Of a stretch of DNA of 64,000 nt, positions 43,087-60,396 are shown piece by piece. The stretch comes from Solimonas sp. SE-A11 (GTDB taxonomy: Bacteria > Pseudomonadota > Gammaproteobacteria > Nevskiales > Nevskiaceae): contig NZ_JAUASX010000006.1 in the NCBI RefSeq assembly GCF_030345715.1, forward strand, positions 124,001 to 188,000, given 5' to 3'. A program made the position numbers and the translations under genes. Below the pieces are notes generated by a model, which did no database searches, had not been told where the DNA came from, and saw nothing but the letters and a program-made list of their open reading frames with translations. Each line of letters starts with the position of its first letter. Positions within the stretch are counted from its first letter, which is position 1.

Positions 43087-43216
43087 CAAGTCCGGAGCAA
43101 GGCGACGATCGGGGGATGGTTGGGGGCCCGGGGCGCCATTATGGGGGCGCCCGCTGCCTCCCCGTGTGCCGCAGCGCACTCCCCGGAGCCCGGCTATCGG
43201 CGCTGGCCAGGAGAGC

Positions 43217-44167: not shown

Positions 44168-45139
44168 ATGCGCATCGCGTTGCTCGCCCTTGCCCTGCTG
44201 ATGCCCGCCGTTGCCCCGGCCGAGGACAAGGAGCCGATCGAGATCCCGGCGGAAACTAAGCTGCCGTCCACCGACGGAGGCAAGTCGGAGCCGAACCTGG
44301 GCTCGCCCGAACCCGACCTCACCGGCGAGGAGTTGCCGGTGATCACCGTAGCGCCCAAGGAAGCGGTGGACGACAACGCGCTGCTCTTCGAGAACCTGCG
44401 GCGCGACCCGGTGGTGTTCGCGCTGGTGGCGGAGAAGCCGGGCCTGTCCTTCCACCGGCCGATGTTTCTGCTGCCGGTTAGCTGGGTCGAGGGACTGGAG
44501 GACGGCGAGAAGGAAGCCGAGACCTACTTCCAGATCAGCTTCAAGCAGCGCATCCTCGGCTCCAACTTCTACTTCGCCTACTCGCAGAAGTCGTTCTGGC
44601 AGGTGTTCGACGCCGACCGCTCGCGCCCCTTCCGCGAAACCAACTACAACCCGGAAGTGTTCTACCGCTGGAAGCCCAACGACCGCATCAAGACCTGGGG
44701 CCTGGACCTGGGTGCCGAGCACGAGTCCAACGGCAAGGAGATTCCCGACTCGCGCAGCTGGAACCGCATCTACGCCGCCGGTTTCTGGGAGAACCCCAAT
44801 ACCCTGGCCTACCTCAAGCTCTGGTACCGCCTGCCCGAGGACGATGATCGCCCGATCGACGACCCCAAGCGCGACGACAACCCGGATATCGAGGACTATT
44901 ACGGCTACGGCGAGCTGCAGGTGCAGCGCAACCTGTTCGGCGCCCGCCGCCACCGCCTGGGCATGCTCGGCCGCTTCAACCCGGGCACCGGCAAGGGCGC
45001 CATCAACCTCAGCTACAGCGCGCCGCTGTCCAACTACGCCTTCTGGAATTTCTACGTCTGGCAGGGCTACGGCGAGAGCCTGATCGACTACAACCGCGAG
45101 GTCACGCGAGTGGGGTTGGGGGTCAGCTTCTCGCGGTAG
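44168..45139 (+). CDS. pldA: outer-membrane phospholipase A
   Basis: A 323-residue outer-membrane phospholipase A (OMPLA), a calcium-dependent beta-barrel that hydrolyses phospholipids in the outer leaflet. A signal peptide (1-18) precedes an acidic linker (about 20-75) and then the barrel. The catalytic His and Ser are in GAEHESNGKE (about residue 190) and the Asn is in SRSWNRIY just after. The C-terminal residue pattern GLGVSFSR is near the aromatic ending of barrels. A single gene with a terminator on each side. Confidence 0.9.
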   Translation: MRIALLALALLMPAVAPAEDKEPIEIPAETKLPSTDGGKSEPNLGSPEPDLTGEELPVITVAPKEAVDDNALLFENLRRDPVVFALVAEKPGLSFHRPMFLLPVSWVEGLEDGEKEAETYFQISFKQRILGSNFYFAYSQKSFWQVFDADRSRPFRETNYNPEVFYRWKPNDRIKTWGLDLGAEHESNGKEIPDSRSWNRIYAAGFWENPNTLAYLKLWYRLPEDDDRPIDDPKRDDNPDIEDYYGYGELQVQRNLFGARRHRLGMLGRFNPGTGKGAINLSYSAPLSNYAFWNFYVWQGYGESLIDYNREVTRVGLGVSFSR

Positions 45140-45690: not shown

Positions 45691-46989
45691 CTACCTCAAC
45701 GCCGCACTCAAGCGCCCCAACGCCTTGCGATACTCCTCCGGCTGGAAGCGATCACGATTCTTCACCGACTCATACAGCGCATCCGTCGGCCCCTTCAGCG
45801 CGCCGTTGCCGCCGCCACGCTCACCGATGGCCGCCGCCAGCACCTGCGCCGCCATCGCCGTCTGCTGCGCGTAGTAGAAGTCGCCGCCCTGTGCGTTCTC
45901 CGCATTCTGCGCCACGCGCTTGAGCACCTGGCGTAGTTGCCCCGCGTCCGCTGAACCCTGTCGCAGGCGGCCCCAGGCCTCGCGCCGCAGCCAGCCGCGC
46001 AACTCGCCGGCCTGCTCGCGCAGGCGCGAGGCATCGGTCTGGTACTGCTGGTAGAGCAGCGCGCGCTGCGCGCCCATCGCCTCGGCCACGCCAGGCGCCA
46101 TCACGCCGGCCCAGGCCTGCACCAGCACCAGCGGCTGGTCCGCCAGCGGCACCTGGCCGGGCGCAAGACCCGGCGTGCGGTCGGCGCGCCAGCGGTTGCC
46201 GTTCATCGAGTGGTGGCAGGCATCGCAGTCGAATAGCGCCAGTTCGGGGAACAGCCCGTGGCCCAGCGCCCCGCTCTCCATGCGCGCCAGCCAGGCATCG
46301 GTCGCCGCTATCTGACCTTCCAGCCAGTTGCTGGCGGTGTCGGTCACCGGCTTGCGCTGGCGATAGTCGGCATCCACGTCCCAGTGCGGCGGCATCAGCG
46401 CCGTGAAGGTGTCCAGTTCGAACAGCAGCGGCGGATGGCCGGCCGCCATGATCTGGTGCGTCATCGGGTGCGAGTTGTCGCCCAGGTGGCAACCGCTGCA
46501 CATCTCGGCGCGGACCTTCGGGTCCCAGGTCGCCGTCATGCCGTGGGCGATCCGCTCCTCAGAGCTCTTCAGTTCATTGACGTGCGCCGCGATCCAGCGC
46601 TCCGCCGGGCCATGGCAGGCCTCGCAGCCAATGCCGTCTTCCAACTGGAAGCGCGGACCGCGGGCTTCGGCGGGCGGGGCATGGGCGTGGCACACCAGGC
46701 AGGCCTGCGCCTCGTGCGGCGCGCCCAGGCCGAGCTGGCCGGCGATGCGGCGCGAGCGCTCGGTGAAGAGCGTCTTCCAGGCGGAGGCGTGGGCATCCTT
46801 GCGCTGCCAGACAAAATATTCGTCCTGGCGGATCTGCCGATCGGCGAAGGGACGGATGGAGCCGTGACAGGTACTGCCCGCGCAGTCGGCAACACCGAGG
46901 TTGCGATCGGGCGCCGGCGCGGCGCCCACGGGCACGAGCACCGACAACAGCAGTGCAAGACTGAGCGCAACAGAATAGTGGCGTCGCAT
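45691..46989 (-). CDS. exported multiheme cytochrome c (c554-like)
   Basis: A 432-residue exported c-type cytochrome. The signal peptide ends near VGAAPA. Heme sites are CX4CH (CAGSTCH, about residue 36), CLVCH (about 97), CEACH (about 122), CSGCH (about 164) and CDACH (about 257), so five hemes if the CX4CH site is used. GIGCEACHGPAERWIAAH and MTHQIMAAGHPPLLFELDTF recall the cytochrome c554/multiheme family. The C-terminal third is helical and heme-free. The ATG at 46989 (GGAG nine bases upstream) is preferred to 47025. It is divergent from the six-gene electron-transfer operon. Confidence 0.85.
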   Translation of the reverse strand: MRRHYSVALSLALLLSVLVPVGAAPAPDRNLGVADCAGSTCHGSIRPFADRQIRQDEYFVWQRKDAHASAWKTLFTERSRRIAGQLGLGAPHEAQACLVCHAHAPPAEARGPRFQLEDGIGCEACHGPAERWIAAHVNELKSSEERIAHGMTATWDPKVRAEMCSGCHLGDNSHPMTHQIMAAGHPPLLFELDTFTALMPPHWDVDADYRQRKPVTDTASNWLEGQIAATDAWLARMESGALGHGLFPELALFDCDACHHSMNGNRWRADRTPGLAPGQVPLADQPLVLVQAWAGVMAPGVAEAMGAQRALLYQQYQTDASRLREQAGELRGWLRREAWGRLRQGSADAGQLRQVLKRVAQNAENAQGGDFYYAQQTAMAAQVLAAAIGERGGGNGALKGPTDALYESVKNRDRFQPEEYRKALGRLSAALR

Positions 46990-47215
46990 GGATCGAGCTC
47001 CGATCGGCAGCTGGCTATGGGCCAATATAAACGCAGGCGATCCACCCCACTACTGCCTGCTCCCGCACTTTCCACGAATCCGCCGTATCCGACGTGCGGA
47101 GCGTCACATTCGTACAAACGATGTCGCCGAACTGCGCACTGCATCACTGGCGCCACTCGTTGGAATGCGCCTAAAGTAGGTTTCAGGCCGCCAGCCGAGC
47201 CAAAAAGAGCCAGGT
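46990..47215. promoter_or_regulatory. divergent promoter region of the cytochrome cluster
   Basis: A 226-base spacer between the pentaheme gene and the six-gene operon. CGTGC-GGAGCG-TCACA (47093-47108) matches eight of ten fixed bases of the CRP consensus TGTGA-N6-TCACA, with a perfect right half. AATATAAAC at about 47024 could be a minus-10 region for the leftward gene. No sure promoter can be assigned by eye. Confidence 0.3.
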
Positions 47216-49606
47216 ATGGTCCAAGGGAGCGTCAAGATCGCGATTGTCGGGTCCGGCCCTGCCGGCCTTTCTGCTGCCGCGCGCGCCGCGGAGCTGGGCA
47301 TTTCGCATGTGCTGCTGGAAGCCGAGAGCTGGCTTTCGAACACCATCTATCGATACCAGAAGGGCAAGCACGTCATGGCCGAGCCAGACGTGCTGCCGCT
47401 GCGTTCGCCACTGACCTTCACCGCCGGCAAGCGCGAGGCGATCCTCGAGGCTTGGAACAGCGGCACGGCGGCGTTGGGCGTCAACATCGCGCATCGTGCG
47501 CGGGTCAGCGCCATCAGCGGCCAAAAGGGTGCTTTCACGATCACGCTCGACGGCGGCAGCACGCTGCAGGCGGAGGCGGTGGTGCTGGGCATCGGCCTGC
47601 AGGGCAACCTGCGCAAGCTCGGCTGCCCCGGCGAGGATCTGGACTGGGTGCAGTACCAGCTCGACGATCCGGACGAATACAAGGGAGAGACCATCGTCAT
47701 CGTCGGTGCCGGCGACGCGGCCATCGAGAACGCCATCGCCCTGGCCGATAACAACAAGGTCTACATCCTCAACCGCCGCGACGAGTTCGACCGCGCCAAG
47801 CCCGGCAACCTGTCGGGCATCCTCAAGGCGATCGAGGACGGCAAGCTCACCTGCCTCTACAACACCAAGCCGGTAGCGGCGGAGGACTCGCCCGCCGGCA
47901 AACGCCTGCGCGTGGCCACCAACGAGGGCGAGACCGAGCTGGCGGTGGACCGCGTGATCGCGCGCCTGGGCGCCACGCCGCCGCGTGCCTTCGTCGAGAG
48001 TACCGGCATCCAGTTTCCCAGCAAGGACCCCAACAGCGTGCCGGCGGTCTCGGCCCAGTACGAATCCAACGTGCCGGGCCTGTACATCATCGGCGCGCTG
48101 GCGGGTTTCCCGCTGATCAAGCAGGCGATGAACCAGGGCTACGAGGTCATCGAGTTCATCGAAGGTCGCACGGTGGAGCCGGCCGATACGCCGCTGCTGC
48201 GCGACAAGTTCGCGGTGCTGCCGGACATCACCGACATCGAGGAAGCGCTGGCCACCATGCAGCGCCGCGTGCCGATCCTCAAGCCGCTGACGCCGCTGCA
48301 GATGCGCGAGTTCATGATCGACTCCGATATCCGCGCGCCCGCGGACGGCGAGATCATCTTCCAGCTCAACGACTACACCGACACCTTCTACTCCGTGGTC
48401 TCCGGCACAGTGGAGATCGAGGTGGACCCGGCCGACCCGTCCAAGAAGTTCACGCTGGGCAAGGGCGACTTCTTCGGTGAGATGAGCCTGATCTCGGGCC
48501 GCCGCCGCTCGGCGACGGTGCGGGCCGGCGAGAAGTGCGTGCTGATCGAGACGCCGCGCCGCTCGATGAACAAGCTGATCAACTCGGTGGCCGCGGTCAA
48601 GCGCGTCATCGACGAGGTGTTCCTGCGCCGCATCATCCAGGGCAAGATCGCGCCGACGCTGCCGCCGGAGGAGATCGCCGACCTGGTCAGCAGCGCCGAG
48701 GTACGGCAGTACCGCCCCGGCGAGGTGCTGTTCAACGAAGGCGACGCTGGCGACGCGCTGCACCTGATCCGCAAGGGCTCGGTCACCGTGTCGCGCGAGA
48801 TCGGCGGCAAGGACGTGGTGCTGGCCTACGTGCCGGCCGGCCAGTATGTGGGCGAGATGGCCCTGGTCAGCGACCTGCCGCGCTCGGCCACGGCGCGCGC
48901 CGCGGTGGCCACCGAAACCATCCGGCTCGACGGCGTCGCGTTCAAGGAACTGATGATGCGGCGCACCCAGGTGCGCGACCGCGTGCAGGAGGTCTACCGC
49001 TCGCGCGTGGCCCAGAACGCCGTGGCGCAGGCCCGCCCGATGGGCGACGTGCTCGAATTCATGATGTCGCAGGGCCTGGGCGAGGCCACCGACGTGCTGC
49101 TGATCGACGAGTCGCTGTGCGTGCGCTGCGACCAGTGCGAGAAGGCCTGCTCCGACACCCACGGCAACGTCAGCCGCCTCAAGCGCGAGGCCGGCCCCAC
49201 CTTCGCCAACCTGCACGTGCCAACGTCCTGCCGCCACTGCGAGCACCCGCACTGCATGAAGGACTGCCCGCCGGACGCGATCAAGCGCGCCCCCAACGGC
49301 GAGGTCCACATCACCGACGCCTGCATCGGCTGCGGCAACTGCGAGCGCAACTGCCCCTACGGCGTGATCCAGATGGGCATCCAGAGCAAGACCAAGCCGA
49401 GCCTGTGGCGCTGGATGCTGTTCGGCGGCGAAGAGCCCGGCCGCTACCATCCGGTCAAGAAGGACAAGAGCGCCAAGAAGGCGACCAAGTGCGACATGTG
49501 CAAGGACCTTGACGGCGGTCCGGCCTGCGTGCGCGCCTGCCCCACCGGCGCCGCCATGCGTGCCAGCCCCGAGCAGTTCGTGAAGCTCTACCGGGGAGGC
49601 CGCTGA
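47216..49606 (+). CDS. NAD(P)/FAD oxidoreductase fused to two cNMP-binding domains and a four-cluster ferredoxin domain
   Basis: A 796-residue cytosolic protein (no signal peptide). Residues 1-320: a two-dinucleotide-fold flavoprotein with GSGPAGLSAA (about 12) and GAGDAAIENA (about 165), lacking the CxxC of thioredoxin reductase. Residues about 355-470 and 490-600: two cyclic-nucleotide-binding domains, with GDFFGEMSLISGRRRSATV and GQYVGEMALVSDLPRSATA as phosphate-binding cassettes. Residues about 630-790: a HybA/DmsB-like domain with 16 Cys for four 4Fe-4S clusters (CVRCDQCEKAC, CRHCEHPHCMKDCP, CIGCGNCERNCP, CDMC...CVRACP). It looks like an NAD(P)H-linked electron entry module gated by cNMP. 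The next gene overlaps its stop. Confidence 0.88.
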   Translation: MVQGSVKIAIVGSGPAGLSAAARAAELGISHVLLEAESWLSNTIYRYQKGKHVMAEPDVLPLRSPLTFTAGKREAILEAWNSGTAALGVNIAHRARVSAISGQKGAFTITLDGGSTLQAEAVVLGIGLQGNLRKLGCPGEDLDWVQYQLDDPDEYKGETIVIVGAGDAAIENAIALADNNKVYILNRRDEFDRAKPGNLSGILKAIEDGKLTCLYNTKPVAAEDSPAGKRLRVATNEGETELAVDRVIARLGATPPRAFVESTGIQFPSKDPNSVPAVSAQYESNVPGLYIIGALAGFPLIKQAMNQGYEVIEFIEGRTVEPADTPLLRDKFAVLPDITDIEEALATMQRRVPILKPLTPLQMREFMIDSDIRAPADGEIIFQLNDYTDTFYSVVSGTVEIEVDPADPSKKFTLGKGDFFGEMSLISGRRRSATVRAGEKCVLIETPRRSMNKLINSVAAVKRVIDEVFLRRIIQGKIAPTLPPEEIADLVSSAEVRQYRPGEVLFNEGDAGDALHLIRKGSVTVSREIGGKDVVLAYVPAGQYVGEMALVSDLPRSATARAAVATETIRLDGVAFKELMMRRTQVRDRVQEVYRSRVAQNAVAQARPMGDVLEFMMSQGLGEATDVLLIDESLCVRCDQCEKACSDTHGNVSRLKREAGPTFANLHVPTSCRHCEHPHCMKDCPPDAIKRAPNGEVHITDACIGCGNCERNCPYGVIQMGIQSKTKPSLWRWMLFGGEEPGRYHPVKKDKSAKKATKCDMCKDLDGGPACVRACPTGAAMRASPEQFVKLYRGGR

Positions 49607-50526
49607 TGGCCCAGACGCCGCACGGAAGCTTCCTGCGCCACCGGGGTTATCGCTACCTCAAGTTGGCCAGCCTGCTGTGCATCATCTGCATCCTGGTCTA
49701 CTGGGGGCATGATCCCGCAGACGGCCCCAACGGCGGCAGCTGGCTGGGCTACACCCTGGGCACCATCGGCGCCACCCTGATCGTGTGGCTGGCCTGGCTG
49801 GGCGTGCGCAAGCGCCGCTACAGCTCCACCGCCGGCACGGTAAAGGGCTGGCTCTCGGCTCATGTCTACCTGGGCCTGGCGCTGATCACCATCGCCACGC
49901 TGCACACCGGCTTCCAGTTCGGCTGGAACATCCACACCATCGCCTACGTGCTGATGCTGATGGTGATCCTCAGCGGCATCTTCGGCATCGCCGTATATGC
50001 CCGCATGCCCACGCTGATCACCGAGAACATGGGCACCTCCGACCGCGAGACGCTGATCGACGAGATCCTGGACCTGAACCAGCAGGCCCTGAAGATGGCC
50101 GACCCGCTGGGGCCGGATGTACATCGCATCATCTCCCGCTCCACCGAGCGCATGCGCCTGGGCGGCGGGCTGTGGGCGCAGCTGTTCGGCCCCCTGCCTC
50201 CGGGCCGGCGCGCGATCGACGAGTTGCGCAAGATCGTGGCCGACGAAGAACGCGCTGCAAACGCCAAGACCTTCGACCCGCAGAGTTCCACCGTGATGTT
50301 CATGGCCGGTGAGCTCGCACAGGCCAAGAAGCGTGGCGAGGTTGCCGAGAAGTCGCGCCAGCTGATGGAGCTGATCGGCCGTCGCAACGCGCTGATCGTG
50401 CGCGTCAACCGCGACATTCAGCTGCACGCGCAGATGCAAATCTGGCTGTATTTCCACGTGCCCTTGACGGTGGCGCTGCTGGCGGCCCTGGCCGCGCACG
50501 TCATCTCCGTATTCCTCTACTGGTAG
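49606..50526 (+). CDS. membrane protein, probable b-type cytochrome anchor
   Basis: A 306-residue inner-membrane protein. Four TM helices lie in the first half (about 16-34, 45-66, 83-103 and 108-130), then a soluble helical segment (about 135-275) and a last TM helix (about 283-304). His residues in or next to helices (SAHVYLGL, ATLHTGFQF, WNIHTIAY, YFHVPLTV, AAHVISVF) could ligate heme b. I recognise no named family. The ATG overlaps the preceding stop (TGATG). Its place suggests it passes electrons between the cytosolic Fe-S protein and the periplasmic hemes. Confidence 0.75.
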   Translation: MAQTPHGSFLRHRGYRYLKLASLLCIICILVYWGHDPADGPNGGSWLGYTLGTIGATLIVWLAWLGVRKRRYSSTAGTVKGWLSAHVYLGLALITIATLHTGFQFGWNIHTIAYVLMLMVILSGIFGIAVYARMPTLITENMGTSDRETLIDEILDLNQQALKMADPLGPDVHRIISRSTERMRLGGGLWAQLFGPLPPGRRAIDELRKIVADEERAANAKTFDPQSSTVMFMAGELAQAKKRGEVAEKSRQLMELIGRRNALIVRVNRDIQLHAQMQIWLYFHVPLTVALLAALAAHVISVFLYW

Positions 50527-50533
50527 CGCGCCC

Positions 50534-52318
50534 ATGCGTGTCCTGATACGGAGCTTCCAGCAGCAGGGCGACCAACGCATCGCCACGGAGCGCGGCCTGA
50601 TCGGCGAACGCCTGACCATCGGCCGCGGCACCAACCAGGACGTCTACACGCCCGACCTGCGCGCGGCCCTGGCCCACGCCGAGATCGTGCACGACCGGCG
50701 CGGCCCGCTGCTGATCGCCAAGTCCGCCAACGGCGTCTGGGTCAACGGCGCACCGGTGGAAAGCGCCAAGCTGGAGGCCGGCGACATCATCGAGGTCGGC
50801 CGCTTCCGGCTCGAGGTCATCGCCGTGGGCGGCGTGCCCGAGCTGGTGCTGGGCTACGAGGAAAAGCTCAGCCAGGCCGCCGACCTGCAAGCCCGCCGGT
50901 CCTCGCTGAAGACCCGCCTGAGCCAGACGCGGCTGTCGCTGCGCGGCCTGGCCTGGGGGCTGATGCTGCTGATGCTGACCATCGGCCTGCTGCTGCCACT
51001 GGCACTGCGCTACGGCAGCAGCCCGGCCGGTGAAACGCCGCGTGACCGCTCACTGGCAAAGTCCGGCATCCCCTTCGACGATTCCATCTGGCTATCGGGC
51101 CCGGTCAGCAGCGTGCATCGCTACTTCGTGGAGGACTGCGCCGCCTGCCACGAAGCGCCCTTCCGCCAGGTGCGCGACAGCGCCTGCCTGGCCTGCCACA
51201 AGGACACCGCGCAGCACAGCGACAACACGGCGATGCTCAATCACCCCGCCCTCGCCGGCCAGCAGTGCACCGACTGCCACCGCGAGCACAACGGTACGCA
51301 CGGCATCAGCGCGCAGTCGCCTACGCTATGCACGGACTGCCACGCCAATCCGGACAAGGAGTTTGCCGCCGCCAAGCTGCAGCCGGCCTCCAGCTTCAGC
51401 AAGGCACACCCGGAGTTCGCGCCGCGCATCGCCGCCTTCGACGCCAAGACCGGCAAGTTCAGCTTCACCAAGCAGCGCCAGCCGCCGGCGACGCTGCGCG
51501 AGGCCACCAACCTGATCTACCCGCACGACGTCCACCTGAACCCCAAGGGCATCGACTCGCCCGAGGGCAAGGTGGTGATGCAGTGCGCCGACTGCCACCA
51601 GGCGGATTCGCGCGGCGTCAGCTTCGAGCCGGTGAACATGGAGAAGCACTGCTCCAGCTGCCACCGCCTGGACTTCGACCCGGACGACCCCGACCGCAAG
51701 CTGCCGCATGGCCGGCCTGAGCAGATCCAGGGCGTGGTGCGCGACTACTACTACGCCAAGGCCCTGCAGGGCGGCGTCATGGACGGCTCGGCCCCGGCCG
51801 TGGTGCAGCAGCGCCGCCGCCCCGGCGAAACGCTGCCGCGCGACAGCGCCCGCGCGGCGCTGGACTGGGCCGACGCACGGGCACGCCGCACCATGGTCGA
51901 CGTGTTCGAACGCCGCACCTGCCACTACTGCCATGAGGTGCAGCGCAGCGACGATCCGCTGAAGGCCTGGTCCATCGCACCGGTGAACCTGCAGGAGCAC
52001 GCACTCAACGGCTCGCGCTTCGACCACGCCGCGCACAAGGCGCAGCCCTGCAGCGACTGCCATGGTGCGGACCAGTCCAAGACCAGCGCCGATGTGCTGC
52101 TGCCCGACCTCAAGAGCTGCCGCGAATGCCACGGCGACACCGGCAGTGACCGCCAGGTGCCGTCCGGCTGCACGCTGTGCCACGCCTTCCACATCGCCGA
52201 CTCGCATCACTTCGGCAGCCCGGCCAGGGGCATCAAGCCGCAGGACGCCGTGCATGGGGCCGGCGCGGCCAAGCCGGCCAAGGTGCCTGCGCCCACCGCG
52301 AAGGAACTTCCGAAATGA
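50534..52318 (+). CDS. FHA-domain decaheme cytochrome c, membrane anchored
   Basis: A 594-residue fusion. Residues about 15-105 are an FHA phosphopeptide-binding domain (LTIGRGTNQDV, VHDRRGPLLIAKSANGVWVNG, LEAGDIIEVGRFRLEV). One TM helix follows (about 136-158), then a heme domain with ten CXXCH sites from CAACH (about 202) to CTLCH (about 546): CAACH, CLACH, CTDCH twice, CADCH, CSSCH, CHYCH, CSDCH, CRECH and CTLCH. c-type heme attachment requires the C-terminal part to be periplasmic, so FHA should face the cytosol. There is no cleaved leader; the TM acts as anchor. A class III-like multiheme fold is probable. Confidence 0.88.
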   Translation: MRVLIRSFQQQGDQRIATERGLIGERLTIGRGTNQDVYTPDLRAALAHAEIVHDRRGPLLIAKSANGVWVNGAPVESAKLEAGDIIEVGRFRLEVIAVGGVPELVLGYEEKLSQAADLQARRSSLKTRLSQTRLSLRGLAWGLMLLMLTIGLLLPLALRYGSSPAGETPRDRSLAKSGIPFDDSIWLSGPVSSVHRYFVEDCAACHEAPFRQVRDSACLACHKDTAQHSDNTAMLNHPALAGQQCTDCHREHNGTHGISAQSPTLCTDCHANPDKEFAAAKLQPASSFSKAHPEFAPRIAAFDAKTGKFSFTKQRQPPATLREATNLIYPHDVHLNPKGIDSPEGKVVMQCADCHQADSRGVSFEPVNMEKHCSSCHRLDFDPDDPDRKLPHGRPEQIQGVVRDYYYAKALQGGVMDGSAPAVVQQRRRPGETLPRDSARAALDWADARARRTMVDVFERRTCHYCHEVQRSDDPLKAWSIAPVNLQEHALNGSRFDHAAHKAQPCSDCHGADQSKTSADVLLPDLKSCRECHGDTGSDRQVPSGCTLCHAFHIADSHHFGSPARGIKPQDAVHGAGAAKPAKVPAPTAKELPK

Positions 52319-54318
52319 TCCATCGGGCCTTGCGCGCGCTTGCCGGCCTCGCCGCGCTGGCCCTCGCCGCCTGTGGCGGCGGCGCCAGCGGGCCTTCGGC
52401 GGGCAGCGTCGGCATCGGCGTGGGGCCCGTGCCCTGCTCCGGCCGTTGCCAGGACACGCCTACGCGCCTGACCGTCGCCGACGTGGAGCAGATCATCGCG
52501 CAGGGCGTGCAGGAGGCGCAGGCGCGCAGCTCACCCGCCACCATCGTGGTGATCGACCGCGTCGGCAACGTGCTGGCGGCCTACCAGATGGCCGGGGCAC
52601 CCACGACCATCCGCATCACCTCCGGCACCGGCGCCAGCGGCGGCATCGACGGCGTGGAGATCGTGCCCTCGGAACTGGGCGCCATCGCCAAGGCCCTCAC
52701 CGGCGCCTACTTCTCGTCGGAGGGCAATGCCTTCTCGACGCGCACCGCCAACCAGATCATCCAGGAGCACTTCAACCTGGAAGAGCGCTTCACCCCCGGC
52801 GGCCCGCTGTTCGGCGTGCAGATCAGCCAGTTGCCCTGCTCCGACATTTCGCGCCGCTACAACGGCGTGGGCGTGGACCCGGGCCCGCACCGCTCGCCGA
52901 TCGGCTTCGCCGCCGACCCCGGCGGCCTGCCGCTGTACAAGAACGGCACCGTGGTCGGTGCCGTCGCCGTGATCGCCGACGGCATCTACGGCCTGGTGAA
53001 GGACGACGTCGGCACCGACCGCAATCTCGACGAGCTGATCGCCGTGGCCGCCACCTGGGGCTTCGGCGCACCGCGCGACCGCCGCGCCGACATCATCACG
53101 CTCGACGCCAAGACGCTGCGCTACGCCAACGTCGACTTCGGCGACCTCCTCCGCGATCCCGCCACCGCGCCGCCCTTCGCCGCCATTCCGCCGGGCGTGG
53201 GTAGCCTGCTCACCATCCGCGGCTATGCCGATCCGGTCATTCGCGCCGGCACCGCCTTCGGCCAGGCGGACTCGGGCATCCGCCCGGCCAGCCTCATCAC
53301 CGAGCCGGAACTCGCCGCCGTGGACGGCTTCGTTCTGGTGGACGAGTTCAATGCGCGCCGCTTCCCGCCCATCAACGGTACCGACGGCCTGCTGACGCAG
53401 CAGGAGGTCAAGGATCTGCTGTCCACCTCCGTAGCGCTGGCCAACCGCACCCGCAGCCAGGTGCGCCGGCCCTTCGGCGCCAGCGCCGGCATCCATGTGG
53501 TCGTCGTCGACACCAACGGCGCCGTCGTCGGCGTGGCACGCACCCGCGATGCCCTGGTGGATGCCACCGACGTCACCGTGCAGAAGGCGCGCACCTCGAT
53601 CCTGTTCTCCGCCGCCGGCTCCGGTACCGCGCTGCAGGCCCTGCCCGACGCCGAGTACCTGGCGCCGGGCCCTGCCGTGGCCAGCCTGCGCACCGAATCC
53701 ATCGGCCAGTACGTCACCGCCTTCCGCACGTTCTTCAACCAGCCCACCGGCCTGGACGACGGCGCCTTCGCCTGGTCCACGCGCGCGGTCGGCAACATCT
53801 CGCGGCCGTTTTTCCCGGACGGAATCGACGGCAACCCGCCCGGCCCGCTGAGCAAGCCGGCCGGCGAGTGGAGCATCTTCTCCACCGGCCTGGAGCTGGA
53901 CCTGGTCTACAACGCGGTGATCCGCCACATCGCCTTCGTGGTCGGCCTGGCGCCCACCGATGTCGGCATCGGCTGCACCGGCTACCAGGGCATCACCGCC
54001 GGTTTCGAGCCGGTGCAGAACCCTATCCCGAAGATCGCCAACGGCATCACGCTGTTCGCCGGCGGTTTCCCGATCTATCGCGGCGGCACCCTGATCGGCG
54101 CCATCGGCCTGTCCGGCGACGGCCTGGAGCAGGACGACTTCCTGCCCTTCCTCGCCAACGATGCGGTCGGCAAGCTGCCCGGCGGCTCCATCGGCAACGC
54201 GCCCAAGGCAATCCGCGCCGACCAGTTGCGCGTCGGCGACGTGAACCTGCGCTACCTCGTCTGTCCGTTCAAGCCCTTCCTCGACAGCAACGAGCAGAAC
54301 GTCTGCACCGGCCTATGA
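52315..54318 (+). CDS. lipoprotein with two HbpS/GlcG-like domains
   Basis: A 667-residue predicted lipoprotein (LAGLAALALAAC, Cys20). It appears to contain two copies of the HbpS/GlcG (DUF336) fold. The first is at about 50-245 (LTVADVEQIIAQGVQEAQARSSPATIVVIDRVGNVLAAYQMAGAPT ... GTVVGAVAVIADG), the second at about 360-650 (LTQQEVKDLLSTSVALANRTRSQVRRPFG ... GGTLIGAIGLSGDGLEQDD). Members of this fold bind heme, iron or small molecules in some species. It overlaps both neighbours by four bases (ATGA), so it belongs to the electron-transfer operon. Confidence 0.78.
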   Translation: MIHRALRALAGLAALALAACGGGASGPSAGSVGIGVGPVPCSGRCQDTPTRLTVADVEQIIAQGVQEAQARSSPATIVVIDRVGNVLAAYQMAGAPTTIRITSGTGASGGIDGVEIVPSELGAIAKALTGAYFSSEGNAFSTRTANQIIQEHFNLEERFTPGGPLFGVQISQLPCSDISRRYNGVGVDPGPHRSPIGFAADPGGLPLYKNGTVVGAVAVIADGIYGLVKDDVGTDRNLDELIAVAATWGFGAPRDRRADIITLDAKTLRYANVDFGDLLRDPATAPPFAAIPPGVGSLLTIRGYADPVIRAGTAFGQADSGIRPASLITEPELAAVDGFVLVDEFNARRFPPINGTDGLLTQQEVKDLLSTSVALANRTRSQVRRPFGASAGIHVVVVDTNGAVVGVARTRDALVDATDVTVQKARTSILFSAAGSGTALQALPDAEYLAPGPAVASLRTESIGQYVTAFRTFFNQPTGLDDGAFAWSTRAVGNISRPFFPDGIDGNPPGPLSKPAGEWSIFSTGLELDLVYNAVIRHIAFVVGLAPTDVGIGCTGYQGITAGFEPVQNPIPKIANGITLFAGGFPIYRGGTLIGAIGLSGDGLEQDDFLPFLANDAVGKLPGGSIGNAPKAIRADQLRVGDVNLRYLVCPFKPFLDSNEQNVCTGL

Positions 54319-56609
54319 GCATCCTGCCCTTCCGCAAGCTGGCCATCGCCGCGCTGCTGGGCAGCAGCCTCGCGGCACAGGCCGCCGCGGAGCCGTATCT
54401 CTATGGCCCGGTGCGCAGCGGCGAGCAGTTGGCGCGCATCGCCTGGGAACTGCGCCCGGACAAGACCCGCATCGGCACCTGGCAGATGACCGCCGCGCTG
54501 TACCGCGCCAACCCCAAGTCCTTCATCGAAGGCGACATGGAACGCCTGCGCCCCGGCGCCATGCTGACGGTACCCGCCGACGAGGACGTGCGCCGCATCG
54601 ACCCCGAGCTGGCGCGGAAACTGGCCCGCGAGCCCGGCAATGCACGCGCGCTGCTCAACGCGCCGCAGGAAGCCCCGGTGCCGGCGACGACGCCCGCCGC
54701 CTCGACACCCGCTCCAGCGCCCACGCCCGAGCCCGTGGCAGTGGCTCCCGCCATGGCCTCCGGCCTCACGCTGCAGCAGGCGCCCGCCCCCGCAAGCGCA
54801 CCCCCGCCCGTTCCGGCTCCCGGGACGGCCACCGCCAAGGTGGTGCCGGCCTGGGCGCCCGATCCCAGCCCCAAGACCACTCTCACGCTGCCCTCGCTCG
54901 GCACGGCCCCGGCGCCGATCGTGCCGCCCGAGCGCCGCCGCCCGGACGTGGACCCGCGCAGCATTCCACCCGAGCCCGAGGCGCTGCCGGACCCCAACCG
55001 CATGACGCGGCTGGCACCGGTGGCCATGCCCGAGCCCTGGAAGCAGTACGAGAAGATGCCGGTGCCGGACCGCTGGCGCATCCTCAACTCGCTGGGCCTG
55101 GTGCCGCAGCGCTGGTGGGACCCGTACAACCAGAACACCTGGAAGGGCGACAAGCCGCTCTGGGGCAACCAGCACTTCCTCTCGTTCAACGCCACGCTCG
55201 ACAGCGTCTACGAATACCGCGAGCAGCCCACGCCCATCGGCGGCAACGGCACCGGCAACGGCGGCCTGCTCGACCTCTTCGGCCGGCCGCAGCAGTACAC
55301 GCTGGCCAGCAACCTGATCCTGTCGGCCGCCTACATCAAGGGCGACACGGTCTACCGGCCGCCCGACGTCGAGCTGCGCTTCACGCCGGTGATCAACTAC
55401 AACTACACCGCCGTGCAGGAAGCCGGCGCCATCAACATCAATCCCGCCAAGGGCCTGGACCGCCGCGACTCCTTCGTCGGCATCCAGGAGCTGTTCGCCG
55501 ACTTCGACCTGCGCGCCGTCTCCGACCACTACGACTTCGACAGCATCCGCTTCGGCATCCAGCCCTTCTCCAGCGACTTCCGCGGCTTCCTGTTCCAGGA
55601 CAACCAGCTGGCCATCCGCCTGTTCGGCACGCGCGCCAACAACCGCTACCAGTACAACCTGGCCTGGATCCGCCGCTTGGAGAAGGACACCAACAGCGGC
55701 CTCAACGACATCAGCGCGGCGCTGCGCGACGACGATATCTTCCTGTTCAGCCTCTACCGGCAGGACACGCCGGTGTTCGGCTTCACCTCGCAGGGCATCA
55801 TCGCCTACAACCGCAACCGCGACAGCGGCCGCTTCTACGACAAGAACGGCTTCCTGCAACGCCCCGCTGTGATCGGCACCGAGACCACGCGCGAGTACGA
55901 CGTGGTCTACCTCGGCTACAACGGCGACGGCCACTTCGGCCGTCTCAACCTGACCACCTCGGCCTATGCGGCGCTGGGTCGGCAGGACCGTGGCGTGTTC
56001 TTCGACAAGACGCGCGACATCCGCGGCTTCTTCGCCGCGGCCGAGGCGTCCTACGACATGGACTGGATGCGCCTGCGCCTCAGCGCCCTCTATGGCAGCG
56101 GCGACCGCGACCCCTACGACGACACCGCCACCGGCTATGACGCGATCTTCGAGAACCCGATCTTCGCCGGCGCCGACAGCAGCTTCTGGATTCGCCGCCC
56201 GGTGCCGCTGATCGGCGGCGGCGGCGTGGCGCTGTCGCAGTTCAACGGCGTGCTCGCCAACCTGCGCCCCAGCAAGGAATTCGGCCAGTCCAACTTCGAG
56301 AACCCCGGCATCATCCTGGTGGGTGCCGGTGCCGACTTCGACATCACGCCGCAGCTGCGCATCTTCGGCAACGCCAACTACCTGCGCTTCGACGACACTG
56401 CGATCCTGGAGCTGATGCGCAGCCAGGGCGGCATCGGCCGCGAGATCGGCTGGGACCTGTCGGTGTCGGCCACCTGGCGCCCCTTCTTCACCCAGAACAT
56501 CATCCTGCGCCTGTCCGGTGCCGTGCTGCTGCCCGGCGAAGGCTTCCGTGCGCTCTACCCCGACGAGGACGGCTACTCCGTGCTCGCCAACCTGATCTTC
56601 TCCTACTGA
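54315..56609 (+). CDS. exported protein with FimV/LysM-type domain and predicted outer-membrane beta-barrel
   Basis: A 764-residue protein. The signal peptide 1-25 ends AQAAAE. Residues about 28-95 are a FimV-core/LysM-like peptidoglycan-associated domain (YGPVRSGEQLARIAWELRPDKTRIGTWQMTAALYRANP). A Pro/Ala-rich linker (about 118-240) follows. Residues about 250-764 have alternating amphipathic strands and end in LANLIFSY with a terminal aromatic, as outer-membrane barrels do. The barrel recalls DUF1302-like proteins, which I cannot confirm. Its place between HbpS-like and decaheme genes suggests the porin sheath of an outer-membrane cytochrome conduit. Confidence 0.75.
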   Translation: MSILPFRKLAIAALLGSSLAAQAAAEPYLYGPVRSGEQLARIAWELRPDKTRIGTWQMTAALYRANPKSFIEGDMERLRPGAMLTVPADEDVRRIDPELARKLAREPGNARALLNAPQEAPVPATTPAASTPAPAPTPEPVAVAPAMASGLTLQQAPAPASAPPPVPAPGTATAKVVPAWAPDPSPKTTLTLPSLGTAPAPIVPPERRRPDVDPRSIPPEPEALPDPNRMTRLAPVAMPEPWKQYEKMPVPDRWRILNSLGLVPQRWWDPYNQNTWKGDKPLWGNQHFLSFNATLDSVYEYREQPTPIGGNGTGNGGLLDLFGRPQQYTLASNLILSAAYIKGDTVYRPPDVELRFTPVINYNYTAVQEAGAININPAKGLDRRDSFVGIQELFADFDLRAVSDHYDFDSIRFGIQPFSSDFRGFLFQDNQLAIRLFGTRANNRYQYNLAWIRRLEKDTNSGLNDISAALRDDDIFLFSLYRQDTPVFGFTSQGIIAYNRNRDSGRFYDKNGFLQRPAVIGTETTREYDVVYLGYNGDGHFGRLNLTTSAYAALGRQDRGVFFDKTRDIRGFFAAAEASYDMDWMRLRLSALYGSGDRDPYDDTATGYDAIFENPIFAGADSSFWIRRPVPLIGGGGVALSQFNGVLANLRPSKEFGQSNFENPGIILVGAGADFDITPQLRIFGNANYLRFDDTAILELMRSQGGIGREIGWDLSVSATWRPFFTQNIILRLSGAVLLPGEGFRALYPDEDGYSVLANLIFSY

Positions 56610-56610
56610 C

Positions 56611-59600
56611 ATGCGCCTGCTCGCCGCCCTGCTGCTGATCGCACTGGCCGGACCGGCCCCGGCCGCCGGTGGTGAGAAGCCGGTGGAGCGCAGCTACGTC
56701 ATCGCCGACTTCGCACCGCGCTTCCAGCGCCAGGACCAGGCCGAGGCCAAGTCGGCCGGCTGCCAGTCCTGCCACACCGCCAGCGACCAGCACACCATGC
56801 ACGCCAATCCGGCCGTGGTGCTGGGCTGCACCGATTGCCACGGCGGCAACGCCCAGGTCTTCGTCAAACCCGGCCTGGAGCGCAAGGACGCCGCCTACAT
56901 CGACACTCTGGCGCAGGCGCACGTGCTGCCGCTGTACCCCAAGGCCTGGAACTGGCCCTCCAGCCGCAACCCCGAGCACAGCTTCGCCCTGCTGAACAAG
57001 GAAGCGCCGGAGTTCACCCGCTTCGTCAATCCCGGTGACTACCGCGTGGCGCGCGAAGCCTGCGGCGCCTGCCACCTGCCGATCATCGAGGCCGCCGAGC
57101 GCAGCCTGATGTCCACCGGCGCCATGCTCTGGGGTGGCGCCGCGTACAACAACGGCATCCTGCCGTTCAAGCGCTACGTCACCGGCGAGTCCTACACCCG
57201 CGAGGGCATCCAGGCGCGCCTCGACGCGCCGGTGAAGCCGGACGAGAACATGCAGAAGAAGGGCGCGCTGGAAGCGCTCTACCCGCTGCCGGCCTGGGAG
57301 GTAGTCCCTCCAGCCGACGTGTTCCGCGTGTTCGAGCGCGGCGGCCGCAACATCTTCAGCCTGTTCCCGGAGACCGCCAACCCCAACACCGGCGGCAACA
57401 TCCAGCGCCTGGAAGAACCGGGCCGTCCGGACATCAAGCAGTCCAACCGCGGCCCCGGCACCGGCCTGCGCATCGCCGTGCCCGTGCTGAACATGCACAA
57501 GACGCGCCTCAACGATCCCTTCTCCTGGTTTCTGGGCACCAACGACCAGCCAGGCGACTACCGCTCCTCCGGCTGCTCCGGCTGCCACGTGGTCTACGCC
57601 AACGACCGCGATCCGCGGCACTCCGCCGGCTATGCCTCTGCAGGCCACACCGGCAAGACGCAAACCAAGGACCCCACCATCCCCAAGGACGAGGAAGGCC
57701 ACCCGCTCAAGCACGTCTTCACCCGGGCCATCCCCACCAGCCAATGCATGATCTGCCACATGCACCAGCCGAACATCTTCCTCAACTCGATGCTCGGCTA
57801 CACCATGTGGGACTACGAGACCGGCGCCAGCCACATGTGGCCCAAGGAGCAGAAGTACCCGGACAGCGCCGAGATCCACAAGATCAACATGCGCAACCCC
57901 GAGGAAGCGGCCATCCGCGGCAACTGGGGCAAGCGCGAGTTCCTCGACAAGGTCTCCGAGCTGAACCCGGACATCAAGGACACGCAGTTCGCCGACTACC
58001 ACGGCCACGGCTGGAACTTCCGCGCCATCCACAAGCGCGACCGCAAGGGCAACCTGCTGGACAAGGACGGCAACATCGTCGCCGACGACGACCCCAAGAA
58101 GTTCAGCAAGACCGTGCAGATGTCCTCCATCCACGTCGACGTGGGCATGCACTGCGTGGACTGTCACTTCTCGCAGGACTCGCACGGCAACGGCCACATC
58201 TACGGCGAGGTGGCGCAGGCCGTGGAGATCGACTGCCAGGACTGCCACGGCACCGCCGACCGCTATCCCACGTTGAAGACCTCCGGCCCCGCCGCCCCGC
58301 CGGGCGGCAGCGACATGGCCCGCCTGCGCGTGCAGGACGGCCGCAAACGCTTCGAGTGGCGCGGCAACAAGCTCTACCAGCGCTCCGCGCTGGACCCAAA
58401 GAAGGAATGGGAGGTCTCGCTGGTCAAGGACTCGGTCACGCCCGGCAACTCGCATTACAACGAGAAGGCCGCGCGCGCCAAGCTGATGTCCAAGGACACC
58501 ATCAACCAGCTCTTCGGCACCGACGTGGCGCCCGAGAACCGCGCCCACAAGGACGACGAGGTGATGTGCATCACCTGCCACACCTCCTGGACCACCTCCT
58601 GCTTCGGCTGCCACCTGCCGATCCAGGCCAACTGGAAGACGCCACGCAACCACTTCGAGGGCGGCGACAGCCGCAACTACGCCACCTACAACCCCCAGGT
58701 GGCGCGCGACGACTTCTACATGATCGGCAAGCACGGCGAGGCCAAGGGCAACCGCATCGCGCCCGTCCGCTCCACCTCGGCGCTGGTGCTGTCCTCAACC
58801 AATTCCAACCGCGAACGCATCTATATTCAGCAGGCGCCGGTATCGGCCAGCGGCTTCTCCTCGCAGGCCTTCGCGCCGCACTACCCGCACACCGAGCGCA
58901 AGACCGAGACCAAGACCTGCGAGGATTGCCACCTCTCCAAGAACGGCGACAACAATGCCTGGATGACCTCCCTGGTCGGCCTGGGCACCAACTTCGTCAG
59001 CTTCGTCGGCTTCAACGCCTGGCTCGGCCTGGACGGCGCCGTGGAGGCCGTGCAGGTCACCGAGTGGGACGAGCCGCAGGCCGTGATCGGCTCCTACCTG
59101 CACCGCTACGCCTACCCCGGCTGGTACAAGGCCCACGAAGCGCGCGGCCGCAAGCTGCCTGAATCGCACGACCACTCCGCCCGCGGCCCGGTGCAGTGCC
59201 TGCAGCTGCGCGGCGAATACCTCTATGCCGCGGAAGGCCGCGGCGGCATGCGCGCCTACGACGTCGCCAGCATCGCCAACAAGGGCTTCTCGCAGCGCAT
59301 CATCACCGCACCGTTCTCGTTCCTGGGCCAGGACCTGCACATCGGCTCCAAGAACGCCAGCTGCGTGGCCCTGCCCACCAACCAGCCGATCAACCCGCTG
59401 CGCAACCAGGGCGACCTGATGCGCATCGTCAACCAGGAACAGCCCTTCCACCCGATCTACCACTACGCCGTCATCAGCGACGCGGAAGAGGGCCTGATCC
59501 TGGTCAACGTCGATACCCTGCAGGATGGCGAACCGCGCAACAACTACCTCAAGCGCGCCCTCACCTGGAACGGCGGCGGCGCCCTCAAGGGTGCGCGCCA

Positions 59601-60396
59601 CGTGGTGCTCGCCGGCCACCGCGCCTACGTCTCGGCGGATGCCGGCATCGTGGTGGTGAACCTCAACGACCCGATGAAGCCACAGATCGAGGCCACCATC
59701 CCGCTGCAGGACGTCCGCAGCGTCGCCGTACAGTTCCGCTACCTCTTCGCCGTCACCGGTGCCGGCCTGCAGACCATCGACATCACCAAGCCCGCGCAGC
59801 CACGCGTGGTCGCCGGCGCCCTGGTGCCGCTGGCCGACGCCCACCGCGTCCACCTGGCGCGCACCTACGCTTATGTCGCCGCCGGCAAGGACGGCATCGC
59901 CATCGTCGATATCGAGAAGCCCGAGGCCCCCGCGCTGCTGCAGCGCTACGACGCCGACGGCCGCATCCAGGACGCACGCGACATCACCGTGGGCAGCACC
60001 AACGCCTCGCTGTTCGCCTACGTCGCCGATGCCGCCAGCGGCCTGCACGTGATCCAGCTCACCGCACCCGACACCCAGCCCAAGTTCTACGGCTTCTCGC
60101 CGGAGCCGCGCCCGGTCTGGATCGCCCATCGCCAGACCGTGAAGCCGGCTCTAGCGTTGAGCAAGGGCCTGGAACGCGACCGCGCCGTGGACGAAACCGG
60201 CCACCAGATCGCCGTCTTCGGCCGCATCGGGTCACGCCCTTTCAACGTCGAGGAGATGCAGCGCCTCTACCTCGACAAGAACGGCGAGCCCTGGTTCGTC
60301 AGCAACCAGCTCAAGGCCGTGCCGCCGAAGAAGGCCGCGCCCGCCACAGAAAAGAAGAACCCGGCCAGCCAGAAGAACGAGAAGCGGCGCCCCTGA
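56611..60396 (+). CDS. exported decaheme cytochrome with LVIVD-repeat domain
   Basis: A 1261-residue exported protein (signal peptide 1-19). Ten CXXCH sites lie between about residues 51 and 774: CQSCH, CTDCH, CGACH, CSGCH, CMICH, CVDCH, CQDCH, CITCH, CFGCH and CEDCH. From about 850 to 1190 follow LVIVD-type propeller repeats (HVVLAGHRAYVSADAGIVVVNLNDP, YLFAVTGAGLQTIDITKP, YAYVAAGKDGIAIVDIEKP, FAYVADAASGLHVIQL). The tail from 1230 is Lys/Ala rich. Family members of this mixed type are annotated only as multiheme or LVIVD proteins. It starts one base after the barrel gene and closes the operon. Confidence 0.87.
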   Translation: MRLLAALLLIALAGPAPAAGGEKPVERSYVIADFAPRFQRQDQAEAKSAGCQSCHTASDQHTMHANPAVVLGCTDCHGGNAQVFVKPGLERKDAAYIDTLAQAHVLPLYPKAWNWPSSRNPEHSFALLNKEAPEFTRFVNPGDYRVAREACGACHLPIIEAAERSLMSTGAMLWGGAAYNNGILPFKRYVTGESYTREGIQARLDAPVKPDENMQKKGALEALYPLPAWEVVPPADVFRVFERGGRNIFSLFPETANPNTGGNIQRLEEPGRPDIKQSNRGPGTGLRIAVPVLNMHKTRLNDPFSWFLGTNDQPGDYRSSGCSGCHVVYANDRDPRHSAGYASAGHTGKTQTKDPTIPKDEEGHPLKHVFTRAIPTSQCMICHMHQPNIFLNSMLGYTMWDYETGASHMWPKEQKYPDSAEIHKINMRNPEEAAIRGNWGKREFLDKVSELNPDIKDTQFADYHGHGWNFRAIHKRDRKGNLLDKDGNIVADDDPKKFSKTVQMSSIHVDVGMHCVDCHFSQDSHGNGHIYGEVAQAVEIDCQDCHGTADRYPTLKTSGPAAPPGGSDMARLRVQDGRKRFEWRGNKLYQRSALDPKKEWEVSLVKDSVTPGNSHYNEKAARAKLMSKDTINQLFGTDVAPENRAHKDDEVMCITCHTSWTTSCFGCHLPIQANWKTPRNHFEGGDSRNYATYNPQVARDDFYMIGKHGEAKGNRIAPVRSTSALVLSSTNSNRERIYIQQAPVSASGFSSQAFAPHYPHTERKTETKTCEDCHLSKNGDNNAWMTSLVGLGTNFVSFVGFNAWLGLDGAVEAVQVTEWDEPQAVIGSYLHRYAYPGWYKAHEARGRKLPESHDHSARGPVQCLQLRGEYLYAAEGRGGMRAYDVASIANKGFSQRIITAPFSFLGQDLHIGSKNASCVALPTNQPINPLRNQGDLMRIVNQEQPFHPIYHYAVISDAEEGLILVNVDTLQDGEPRNNYLKRALTWNGGGALKGARHVVLAGHRAYVSADAGIVVVNLNDPMKPQIEATIPLQDVRSVAVQFRYLFAVTGAGLQTIDITKPAQPRVVAGALVPLADAHRVHLARTYAYVAAGKDGIAIVDIEKPEAPALLQRYDADGRIQDARDITVGSTNASLFAYVADAASGLHVIQLTAPDTQPKFYGFSPEPRPVWIAHRQTVKPALALSKGLERDRAVDETGHQIAVFGRIGSRPFNVEEMQRLYLDKNGEPWFVSNQLKAVPPKKAAPATEKKNPASQKNEKRRP

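Follow-up and report, generated by a model that had tools for sequence, protein, structure and literature searches.

A block of seven genes (A to G) at positions 45691–60396 of the window, a 64,000-nucleotide stretch of DNA from Solimonas sp. SE-A11, encodes a cytosolic flavin and iron–sulfur reductase, an inner-membrane protein, multiheme cytochromes, a predicted lipoprotein and a predicted β-barrel, and recurs with conserved gene order in other bacterial genomes. The block may constitute a regulated chain, controlled by cyclic nucleotides, that exports electrons from NADPH in the cytosol through multiheme cytochromes to the cell surface, a reading to which we would give somewhat less than an even chance. 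If it is right, many alpha- and gammaproteobacterial genomes hold an NADPH-fed route of 25 hemes, probably switched by cyclic nucleotides.

Organization and cofactor sites of the block

All seven open reading frames are present, with A transcribed divergently from B–G, and the tight coupling claimed in the preliminary description was confirmed: the B–G junctions are overlaps of 1–4 nt or gaps of 1–7 nt (B/C, overlap of 1; C/D, gap of 7; D/E and E/F, overlaps of 4; F/G, gap of 1). The starts of E and F were corrected to the ATG codons at 52315 and 54315 (the longest open reading frames begin at 52177 and 53868, respectively), each forming an ATGA overlap with the preceding gene. The earlier estimate of about 25 heme sites and four Fe–S clusters agrees with the 25 sites counted here (five in A, ten each in D and G) and with the 16 cysteines of B described below. 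The host genome carries a CcmF gene.

B (47216–49606, plus strand) combines, in Pfam scans, a thioredoxin reductase-like FAD/NAD(P) module (Pyr_redox), two cNMP domains (PF00027) and a Fer4 region (PF13247, 8.6e-12), and directly precedes C. The 16 cysteines of its four [4Fe–4S] sets are each present in 81/81 B sequences. A thioredoxin-type CxxC occurs in the first 330 residues of none of the 81, while an RxxEFxR-like pattern, which we take to resemble an NADPH site, is well kept (R187 in 78 and R193 in 71 of 81), and the electron source is probably NAD(P)H, with NADPH favoured. The cNMP domains retain R431 (81/81), E422 (80/81), R556 (80/81) and E547 (71/81), the arginines presumably binding phosphate and the glutamates ribose.

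C (49606–50526, plus strand) is an inner-membrane protein in which two WX3HX13H motifs and an SGXXG motif occur, and it is predicted to carry two b hemes. Residues W82, H86, H100, G124, G127, W280, H284 and H298 are found in 81/81 sequences and S123 in 78/81. No family was matched by C in Pfam and NCBIfam scans, and a PDB sequence search with the C alignment returned a single match, to a ribosomal protein (E 0.81).

A (45691–47025, minus strand) is an exported-looking, c554-type pentaheme cytochrome (Cytochrome_C554, PF13435, 2.5e-9) with four CxxCH sites and one CX4CH site; its five heme-site and five other histidines, and the Cys and His of the CX4CH site, are kept in 77/77 sequences. D (50534–52318, plus strand) has an FHA-like domain, one hydrophobic segment and ten c3/c7-type heme sites by domain scan and site count, with ten heme-site and ten further histidines, each absent from at most one of 82 sequences. 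G (56611–60396, plus strand) is a decaheme cytochrome in which domain scans recognized c3/c7-type hemes and a C-terminal β-propeller (LVIVD), and in which ten heme-site and 13 other histidines are present in 103/103 sequences. Conservation of the candidate heme ligands of A, D and G exceeds chance; bis-His ligation is possible for every heme of A and D, and G has histidines to spare.

Phosphothreonine-binding FHA domains have a conserved Gly-Arg and Ser core. In the domain of D the Gly-Arg pair is partly kept (G30 in 74/82, R31 in 63/82), but the conserved serine, which we take to be the canonical phosphothreonine-binding residue, is absent at the expected place, and a role of D as a phosphothreonine reader was dropped because of this absence and the degenerate appearance of the domain. 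The sensing domains announced earlier are only partly supported: the cNMP domains of B keep the arginines and mostly the glutamates, whereas the FHA domain of D looks degenerate.

E (52315–54318, plus strand) is a predicted lipoprotein with three HbpS-like stretches (PF03928, 1.6e-18) and a visible lipobox; 67/88 orthologs show a simple lipobox pattern, and the HbpS-like family is annotated as heme-degrading. F (54315–56609, plus strand) is predicted to form a barrel of 18 long strands (mean pLDDT 80.2) resembling AlgE and OprD; a fold search with the model gave a Z score of 27.0 against AlgE, with an rmsd of 3.0 over 362 aligned residues at about 14% identity. MtrB was absent among the best 50 matches listed in each of two such searches, which excludes nothing. 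The F of the window and two orthologs matched nothing in Pfam at E values up to 0.1, and a PDB sequence search with F gave none up to E 1. The N-terminal FimV-core-like domain reported previously is real in the window (TIGR03505, FimV_core, NCBIfam; 52.9 bits against a cut-off of 43.45), but it occurs in 7/73 F orthologs and was discarded as a defining part of the block.

The N-terminus of G is signal-peptide-like and the protein looks exported; 2/103 G sequences show a simple lipobox pattern. Its structure model has a whole-model mean pLDDT of 60.7, with the heme part poorly modelled; a fold search with it listed propellers among the matches, the heme part being of low confidence, and a PDB sequence search with the G alignment gave no match up to E 0.01. 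The barrel of MtrB has 26 strands, and since F is modelled with fewer it may not sheath a cytochrome. Given this AlgE/OprD-like barrel and the rarity of the lipobox in G, an outer-membrane crossing is weakly supported, and the description of the block as trans-envelope was not fully borne out.

Conservation and genomic context

Relatives of G were found in at least 593 stretches of a bacterial genome collection (genome_contigs), and the order C-D-E-F-G is kept in 48 of the 53 named loci whose upstream sequence is long enough, so that a one-off or chance cluster can be set aside. In a phylum sample of 398 genomes, strong G matches occurred in 11 and strong C matches in 12, 11 being common to both. 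The remaining genome (G154) has B-C-D-E-F, and is counted as C without G because no start of G was seen in the 0.3 kb between F and the end of its contig. The gene trees correlate across 64 loci (Pearson 0.51–0.85; label shuffles reach no more than 0.17), to which shared species history contributes, and unrelated phylogenies of the members were thus not seen. The conserved order and cofactor motifs support the proposed electron-transfer block, in which electrons would pass between the cytosol and multiheme cytochromes by way of the inner membrane. Named hosts include Duganella, Haliea, Limnobacter, Steroidobacter, Stagnimonas and Sphingobium, and carriers include groups that are not known for metal respiration.

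Among the neighbours, a class III nucleotide cyclase (41713–43179, minus strand; PF00211, 2.2e-15) lies near the block in the window; a cyclase is near the block in 10/109 stretches and a PP2C in 12/109, in two loci (L105 and L141) directly after A. Next to D, a plasmid of Sphingobium and similar loci carry the gene of a metallophosphoesterase that is related to phosphodiesterases of cyclic nucleotides. A phospholipase A1 also adjoins the block. Two-partner secretion genes surround it on the Sphingobium plasmid; as a partner system they were rejected, transporters being found in 1/124 and the exoprotein in 2/124 of the stretches searched.

Direction of electron flow and rival explanations

In the mechanism that we favour, B would take a hydride from NAD(P)H onto FAD and pass the electrons along its four fused [4Fe–4S] clusters, C would carry them across the inner membrane via its two putative b hemes, and the membrane-anchored D would collect them on the periplasmic side, with A acting as a shuttle. 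G would then deliver them to an acceptor at the cell surface, being docked together with F and E either at the outer membrane or through it, and the two cNMP domains of B may gate the flow. Export is favoured by the conserved gene order and the co-occurrence of G and C in 11 shared genomes, and by the character of B, with its Pyr_redox domain, NADPH-site-like pattern and lack of a thioredoxin-type CxxC; the phosphodiesterase-like metallophosphoesterase, the cyclase and PP2C near the block support its regulation. It is weakened by the 18 strands of F, the few lipoboxes and poor heme model of G, the genome without G, the degenerate FHA domain and the opposite direction proposed for PCC4 (He et al., 2017).

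The same inner half could instead feed a periplasmic reductase with its own channel, in which case F would admit (or release) a substrate, either small or polymeric, and G would reduce this substrate in the periplasm. ExtI of the Geobacter ext cluster has been discussed similarly. This is a strong rival, with an appreciable minority chance of being correct: F resembles the substrate-specific 18-strand AlgE and OprD/Occ channels, few G sequences have a lipobox pattern, all 20 G members scanned match the ExtM model, and loss of ExtI is reported to lower selenite and tellurite reduction but not that of Fe(III) citrate (PMC5877670). The ExtM match is, however, short (residues 505–556; the G of the window scores 68.7 bits, where the equivalog NF040943 requires 800), and since the ExtN and ExtO models are likewise matched by 7/20 G, it may reflect heme motifs that these proteins have in common. 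For a soluble reductase, a propeller and 25 hemes would, in our judgement, be lavish, and no recurring substrate enzyme was recognized among the eight families found in at least 7/108 stretches, five of which were scanned with Pfam.

Electron uptake, in which a donor outside the cell, for instance Fe(II), is oxidized and electrons move inward via C, possibly to the quinone pool, would agree with the motif of the inner-membrane protein and the A-B-C-D homologs common to PCC4-like clusters, but is rather improbable: the cytosolic reductase is a fused NAD(P)-type enzyme, reduction of NAD(P)+ from such donors is uphill, no energy-coupling part was recognized, and Duganella, Haliea, Steroidobacter and Sphingobium, among the named hosts, are aerobic heterotrophs. 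A role in envelope redox maintenance rather than respiration, with reducing power supplied to the outer membrane or to secreted proteins (for example, for repair) or heme handled by E, is very unlikely, as the heme-degrading annotation of the HbpS-like family, the adjoining phospholipase A1 and the secretion genes on the Sphingobium plasmid are offset by the scarcity of the latter elsewhere and by the lack of a recognized repair enzyme among the annotated recurring neighbours (five of eight families).

The most novel form of the export reading, a second-messenger-gated, NADPH-powered exporter that takes electrons from the cytosol to the cell surface of ordinary aerobic proteobacteria and in which an AlgE-type 18-strand barrel and a propeller decaheme replace an MtrAB-type conduit, is rather unlikely. 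Were it true, the block would cross the outer membrane in a new way, and extracellular electron transfer would be routine and signalled beyond the metal respirers.

Comparison with known electron conduits

No published description of the block itself was found among the literature matches listed, nor was one found in the literature search for the outer half (E, F and G) or for a reductase fused to two cNMP domains. The claim of novelty is thus not fully supported: the outer half may be new, while the inner half is of a kind already predicted in 2017, its inner-membrane motif and parts of the A-B-C-D core corresponding to PCC4.

The general scheme of an inner-membrane donor, a decaheme and a barrel is shared with MtrCAB, MtoAB and PioAB. 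Membership of the MtrCAB/MtoAB type was rejected, since MtrB_PioB (PF11854) has no match in F or in the host genome, and F is modelled with 18 strands against about 26. The likeness of F to AlgE and OprD (Occ), with Z up to 27.0, is one of fold, at about 14% identity and with no Pfam match. The extHIJKLMNOPQS cluster of Geobacter likewise has several multiheme cytochromes, a b-type membrane protein, an Fe–S protein and a porin, but its Rieske protein and bc-type cytochrome b differ from the Fer4-type B and from C, which matches no model, and the available text lists no flavin/cNMP protein for it (PMC5877670). None of the Ext models is matched by C, E or F.

PCC3 and PCC4 are predicted conduits for which He et al. 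(2017; PMC5566968) propose electron uptake, the opposite of export. Their inner-membrane protein has five transmembrane helices as well as two WX3HX13H motifs and SGXXG; C has both kinds of motif, and a hydropathy scan of it gave three segments above 1.6. The published PCC4 cluster also includes a porin, a decaheme and a small cytochrome of the c554 type; in subgroup II an Fe–S protein (PF13247) precedes the inner-membrane protein, and here the PF13247 region is fused to flavin and cNMP domains. As described there, the periplasmic cytochromes of PCC4 have four, five and ten hemes, against five, ten and ten sites in the block, and PCC4 has no extracellular multiheme cytochrome; heme numbers are far greater in PCC3 (medians 34 and 21), whereas no protein here has more than ten. 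The block differs further in its fused reductase, the FHA domain of D, the five sites of A, a lipoprotein of the HbpS-like type and a second decaheme with a propeller, and its barrel may belong to another family; its heme numbers and the genes of its outer half led us to reject exact membership of PCC4. Five distant loci (L184–L188), assigned to a PCC4-like type by gene content, share parts of the A-B-C-D core and have no homologs of E, F (F profile included) or G; two of them (L184 and L187) have a separate NAD/2Fe–2S flavo-reductase in place of the B type, and a pyridine-nucleotide reductase therefore recurs. With isolate records for carriers in Duganella, Limnobacter, Steroidobacter, Stagnimonas and Sphingobium, the question of direction and acceptor posed by PCC3 and PCC4 becomes accessible to genetics.

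Gene content and conserved cofactor residues

All seven genes of the block, A to G, that the preliminary description placed at 45691-60396 are present in the ORF list of the window, a section of contig C38 in a genome of 4.94 Mb. The genome probably belongs to the family Nevskiaceae: a 300-base test stretch from L061, a locus in another genome of the same family, has an exact counterpart in the Stagnimonas aquatica contig RJVO01000006 (L076). Searches with Pfam and NCBIfam matched the divergent pentaheme A to Cytochrome_C554, the flavin reductase B to Pyr_redox, two cNMP domains and Fer4, the decaheme D to FHA and c3/c7-type hemes, the lipoprotein E to HbpS-like proteins, the predicted barrel F to FimV_core and the large decaheme G to LVIVD and, weakly, to c3/c7-type hemes; the inner-membrane protein C has no family match. 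The tight coupling of the genes was likewise borne out, with a 1 nt overlap between B and C, a gap of 7 between C and D, ATGA overlaps at D/E and E/F and a gap of 1 between F and G. A phospholipase A1 gene (44168-45139, + strand; PF02253, 1.1e-65) adjoins A, and an AbiEi-like match (43489-44097) lies near it.

A script count returned the expected 25 heme sites, 24 CxxCH and one CX4CH, distributed as 4+1 in A and ten each in D and G. Every heme-site histidine is kept throughout the 77 A, 82 D and 103 G sequences compared, save for one D site at 0.99. Exactly five other histidines in A and ten in D are kept in at least 80% of these sequences, and G has 13 further invariant ones; the conserved extra histidines are thus numerous enough for every heme of the three cytochromes to be potentially bis-His. 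The four Fe–S cluster sites seen in B are also upheld, their 16 cysteines being kept in 81/81 sequences, and a thioredoxin-type CxxC is absent from the first 330 residues in 81/81. Near its second Rossmann fold B carries an RxxEFxR-like pattern (R187 in 78/81, R193 in 71/81), which we take to be an NADPH-type site. In C, four histidines and two tryptophans are kept in 81/81.

Distribution, gene order and correlated gene trees

The block is real, conserved and widespread. A G search of 398 phylum genomes gives 23 matches at E 0.001, of which 11 are strong and the other 12 reflect short heme or propeller similarities; a C profile matches 20 of the 398 (12 strong, three intermediate, five weak), and C is strong in all 11 strong-G genomes. 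The one remaining strong-C genome, G154, has B-C-D-E-F; G was not found there, and the 0.3 kb between F and the contig end holds no G start. In the family sample G matches in 26 of 58 genomes (24 strong, including all four of the window's genus), a patchiness that implies frequent gain or loss; among 61 relatives C matches in 22, strongly in 19. Genome contigs of 84,980 species hold at least 593 G-related stretches, some of which may stem from the same gene; of these loci the 80 best were retained. Titles among the G matches listed include Nevskia, Stagnimonas, Sinimarinibacterium, Duganella, Limnobacter, Haliea, Parahaliea, Steroidobacter, Tahibacter and Oceanibacterium, and for a few MAG titles (Mycobacteriaceae, Marinimicrobia, Vicinamibacteria, Bordetella parapertussis) the name or the binning may be wrong. 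Seventeen plasmid records match G, at least 80% of it in 13 (12 Sphingobium, one Sphingopyxis). In Sphingobium herbicidovorans, where the annotation reads 'multiheme c-type cytochrome' for G and 'hypothetical protein' for C, the block lies on the 959 kb plasmid pMSHV (NZ_CP020539), typed conjugative, flanked by two ShlB/FhaC-type secretion genes and adjoined by a 2092-aa protein without a Pfam match.

Among the named loci, 53 extend at least 9.3 kb upstream of G, and 48 of these have C-D-E-F-G in that order on one strand; B is also present in 44 of the 48 (upstream of C in 33, downstream of G in 11), and all seven genes in 31. The five exceptions comprise two in which no E scored, two with only E-F-G and one with B-C-D on the other strand. 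Of 18 loci from the window's closer relatives, 16 carry B-C-D-E-F-G in this order on a single strand; in another, E-F-G precedes B-C-D, and in the last the contig ends before G is reached. Sphingobium and similar loci have two units, A-E-F-G and B-C-D, which are nearby or separate. Three further genomes have B-C-D without E-F-G in the stretch fetched, and in two of these B and C are fused into one ORF of about 1120 aa (L182:6850-10206 and L183:3052-6423), followed by a 9-CxxCH D-like gene. The trees of B to G, from 64 loci with one genome present twice, are far from unrelated: Pearson correlations are 0.51–0.85, with 32–48 of 61 splits in common, and 200 label shuffles give no more than 0.17. 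These correlations agree with joint inheritance of B to G, but also reflect common species history.

Putative signalling context

The proposed sensing domains fared unevenly: both cNMP domains of B keep the Arg and mostly the Glu, but the FHA domain of D lacks the conserved Ser. A class III nucleotide cyclase (41713-43179, - strand) lies 2.5 kb beyond A and could make the ligand of the cNMP domains. Such a cyclase occurs near the block in ten of 109 stretches (two pairs of which share a genome), the window among them and three from one genus; the window's own genome has nine cyclase matches in 4.94 Mb. In S. herbicidovorans a metallophosphoesterase adjoins D; it is related to cyclic-nucleotide phosphodiesterases but scores below their cut-offs (132.6 versus 400 bits and 78 versus 225 bits), and relatives occur in ten further stretches from eight genomes, next to D in seven.

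A PP2C phosphatase is found in 12 of the 109 stretches (L062, L082, L083, L086, L088, L105, L109, L114, L127, L141, L143 and L147), near A and often with an FHA protein beyond; in L105 and L141, the two examined in detail, it directly follows A and precedes an FHA protein. Seventeen of the 109 (L043, L048, L049, L078, L081 and 12 others) have a CcmH/CcmI-type TPR protein (Pfam on L043) close to the block, and a short biotin/lipoyl-like domain protein (Pfam on L118) recurs near it in L118:5232-6167 and 11 other stretches, mostly titled alphaproteobacteria.

Proposed electron flow and relation to known conduits

The model of F (73 sequences; mean pLDDT 80.2) places 18 long strands from residue 287 onwards, behind a well modelled N-terminal domain (residues ~30–115). 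Its best PDB fold match is AlgE (Z 27.0, rmsd 3.0, 362 aligned, 14% identity), followed by OprD/Occ porins, and a search of the window's genome gave no MtrB_PioB match. The start of G resembles a signal peptide, and a lipobox pattern is rare among G sequences (2/103); its propeller is well modelled but its heme part is not. For these reasons, crossing of the outer membrane, as initially proposed, is put forward here as a hypothesis.

The inner half (A-B-C-D) would most likely move NADPH electrons outward, since this direction is downhill and a pyridine-nucleotide reductase recurs. Export to the cell surface then has a small edge over the use of these electrons in periplasmic chemistry through an AlgE-like channel, a reading that the predicted AlgE-like fold of F favours and that stands slightly behind. 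Inward flow, as drawn for the predicted conduit PCC4 by He et al. (2017; PMC5566968), is less likely than outward flow, given the same reductase and energetic arguments.

The model of Geobacter ExtM is matched by 20/20 G sequences scanned (best E 1.7e-21), over a short stretch and with 68.7 bits for the window G against a cut-off of 800; as 7/20 also match the ExtN and ExtO models, this match may be partly due to heme motifs alone. The inner-membrane proteins of PCC3 and PCC4 are defined by two WX3HX13H motifs and SGXXG, with two b hemes predicted (PMC5566968); C has both motifs and SGXXG, and a hydropathy scan gave three segments, compared with their five transmembrane helices. Weaker C matches occur within gene clusters at five loci, L184-L188, with a 10-CxxCH protein matching D only beyond its FHA part (5/5), a protein matching only the cNMP and Fe–S part of B (4/5; its domains in L187 confirmed with Pfam) and an A-like c554 cytochrome (4/5); matches to E, F and G are absent from these stretches (0/5). 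An NAD/2Fe-2S flavo-reductase is encoded in both L184 and L187; the latter also has a cytochrome with five CxxCH and a 459-aa protein that no Pfam model matches, taken from its gene position as a barrel candidate. Because this content fits that published for PCC4 (cytochromes with 4, 5 and 10 hemes, a porin and an Fe–S gene before the inner-membrane protein; PMC5566968), the five loci are provisionally taken as PCC4. The shared motifs of C, the PCC4-like A-B-C-D parts and the absence of E-F-G there therefore make the block a composite, its inner half of PCC4 type and its outer half different. Literature searches found no published description of the block, yet it is built on a known predicted core.
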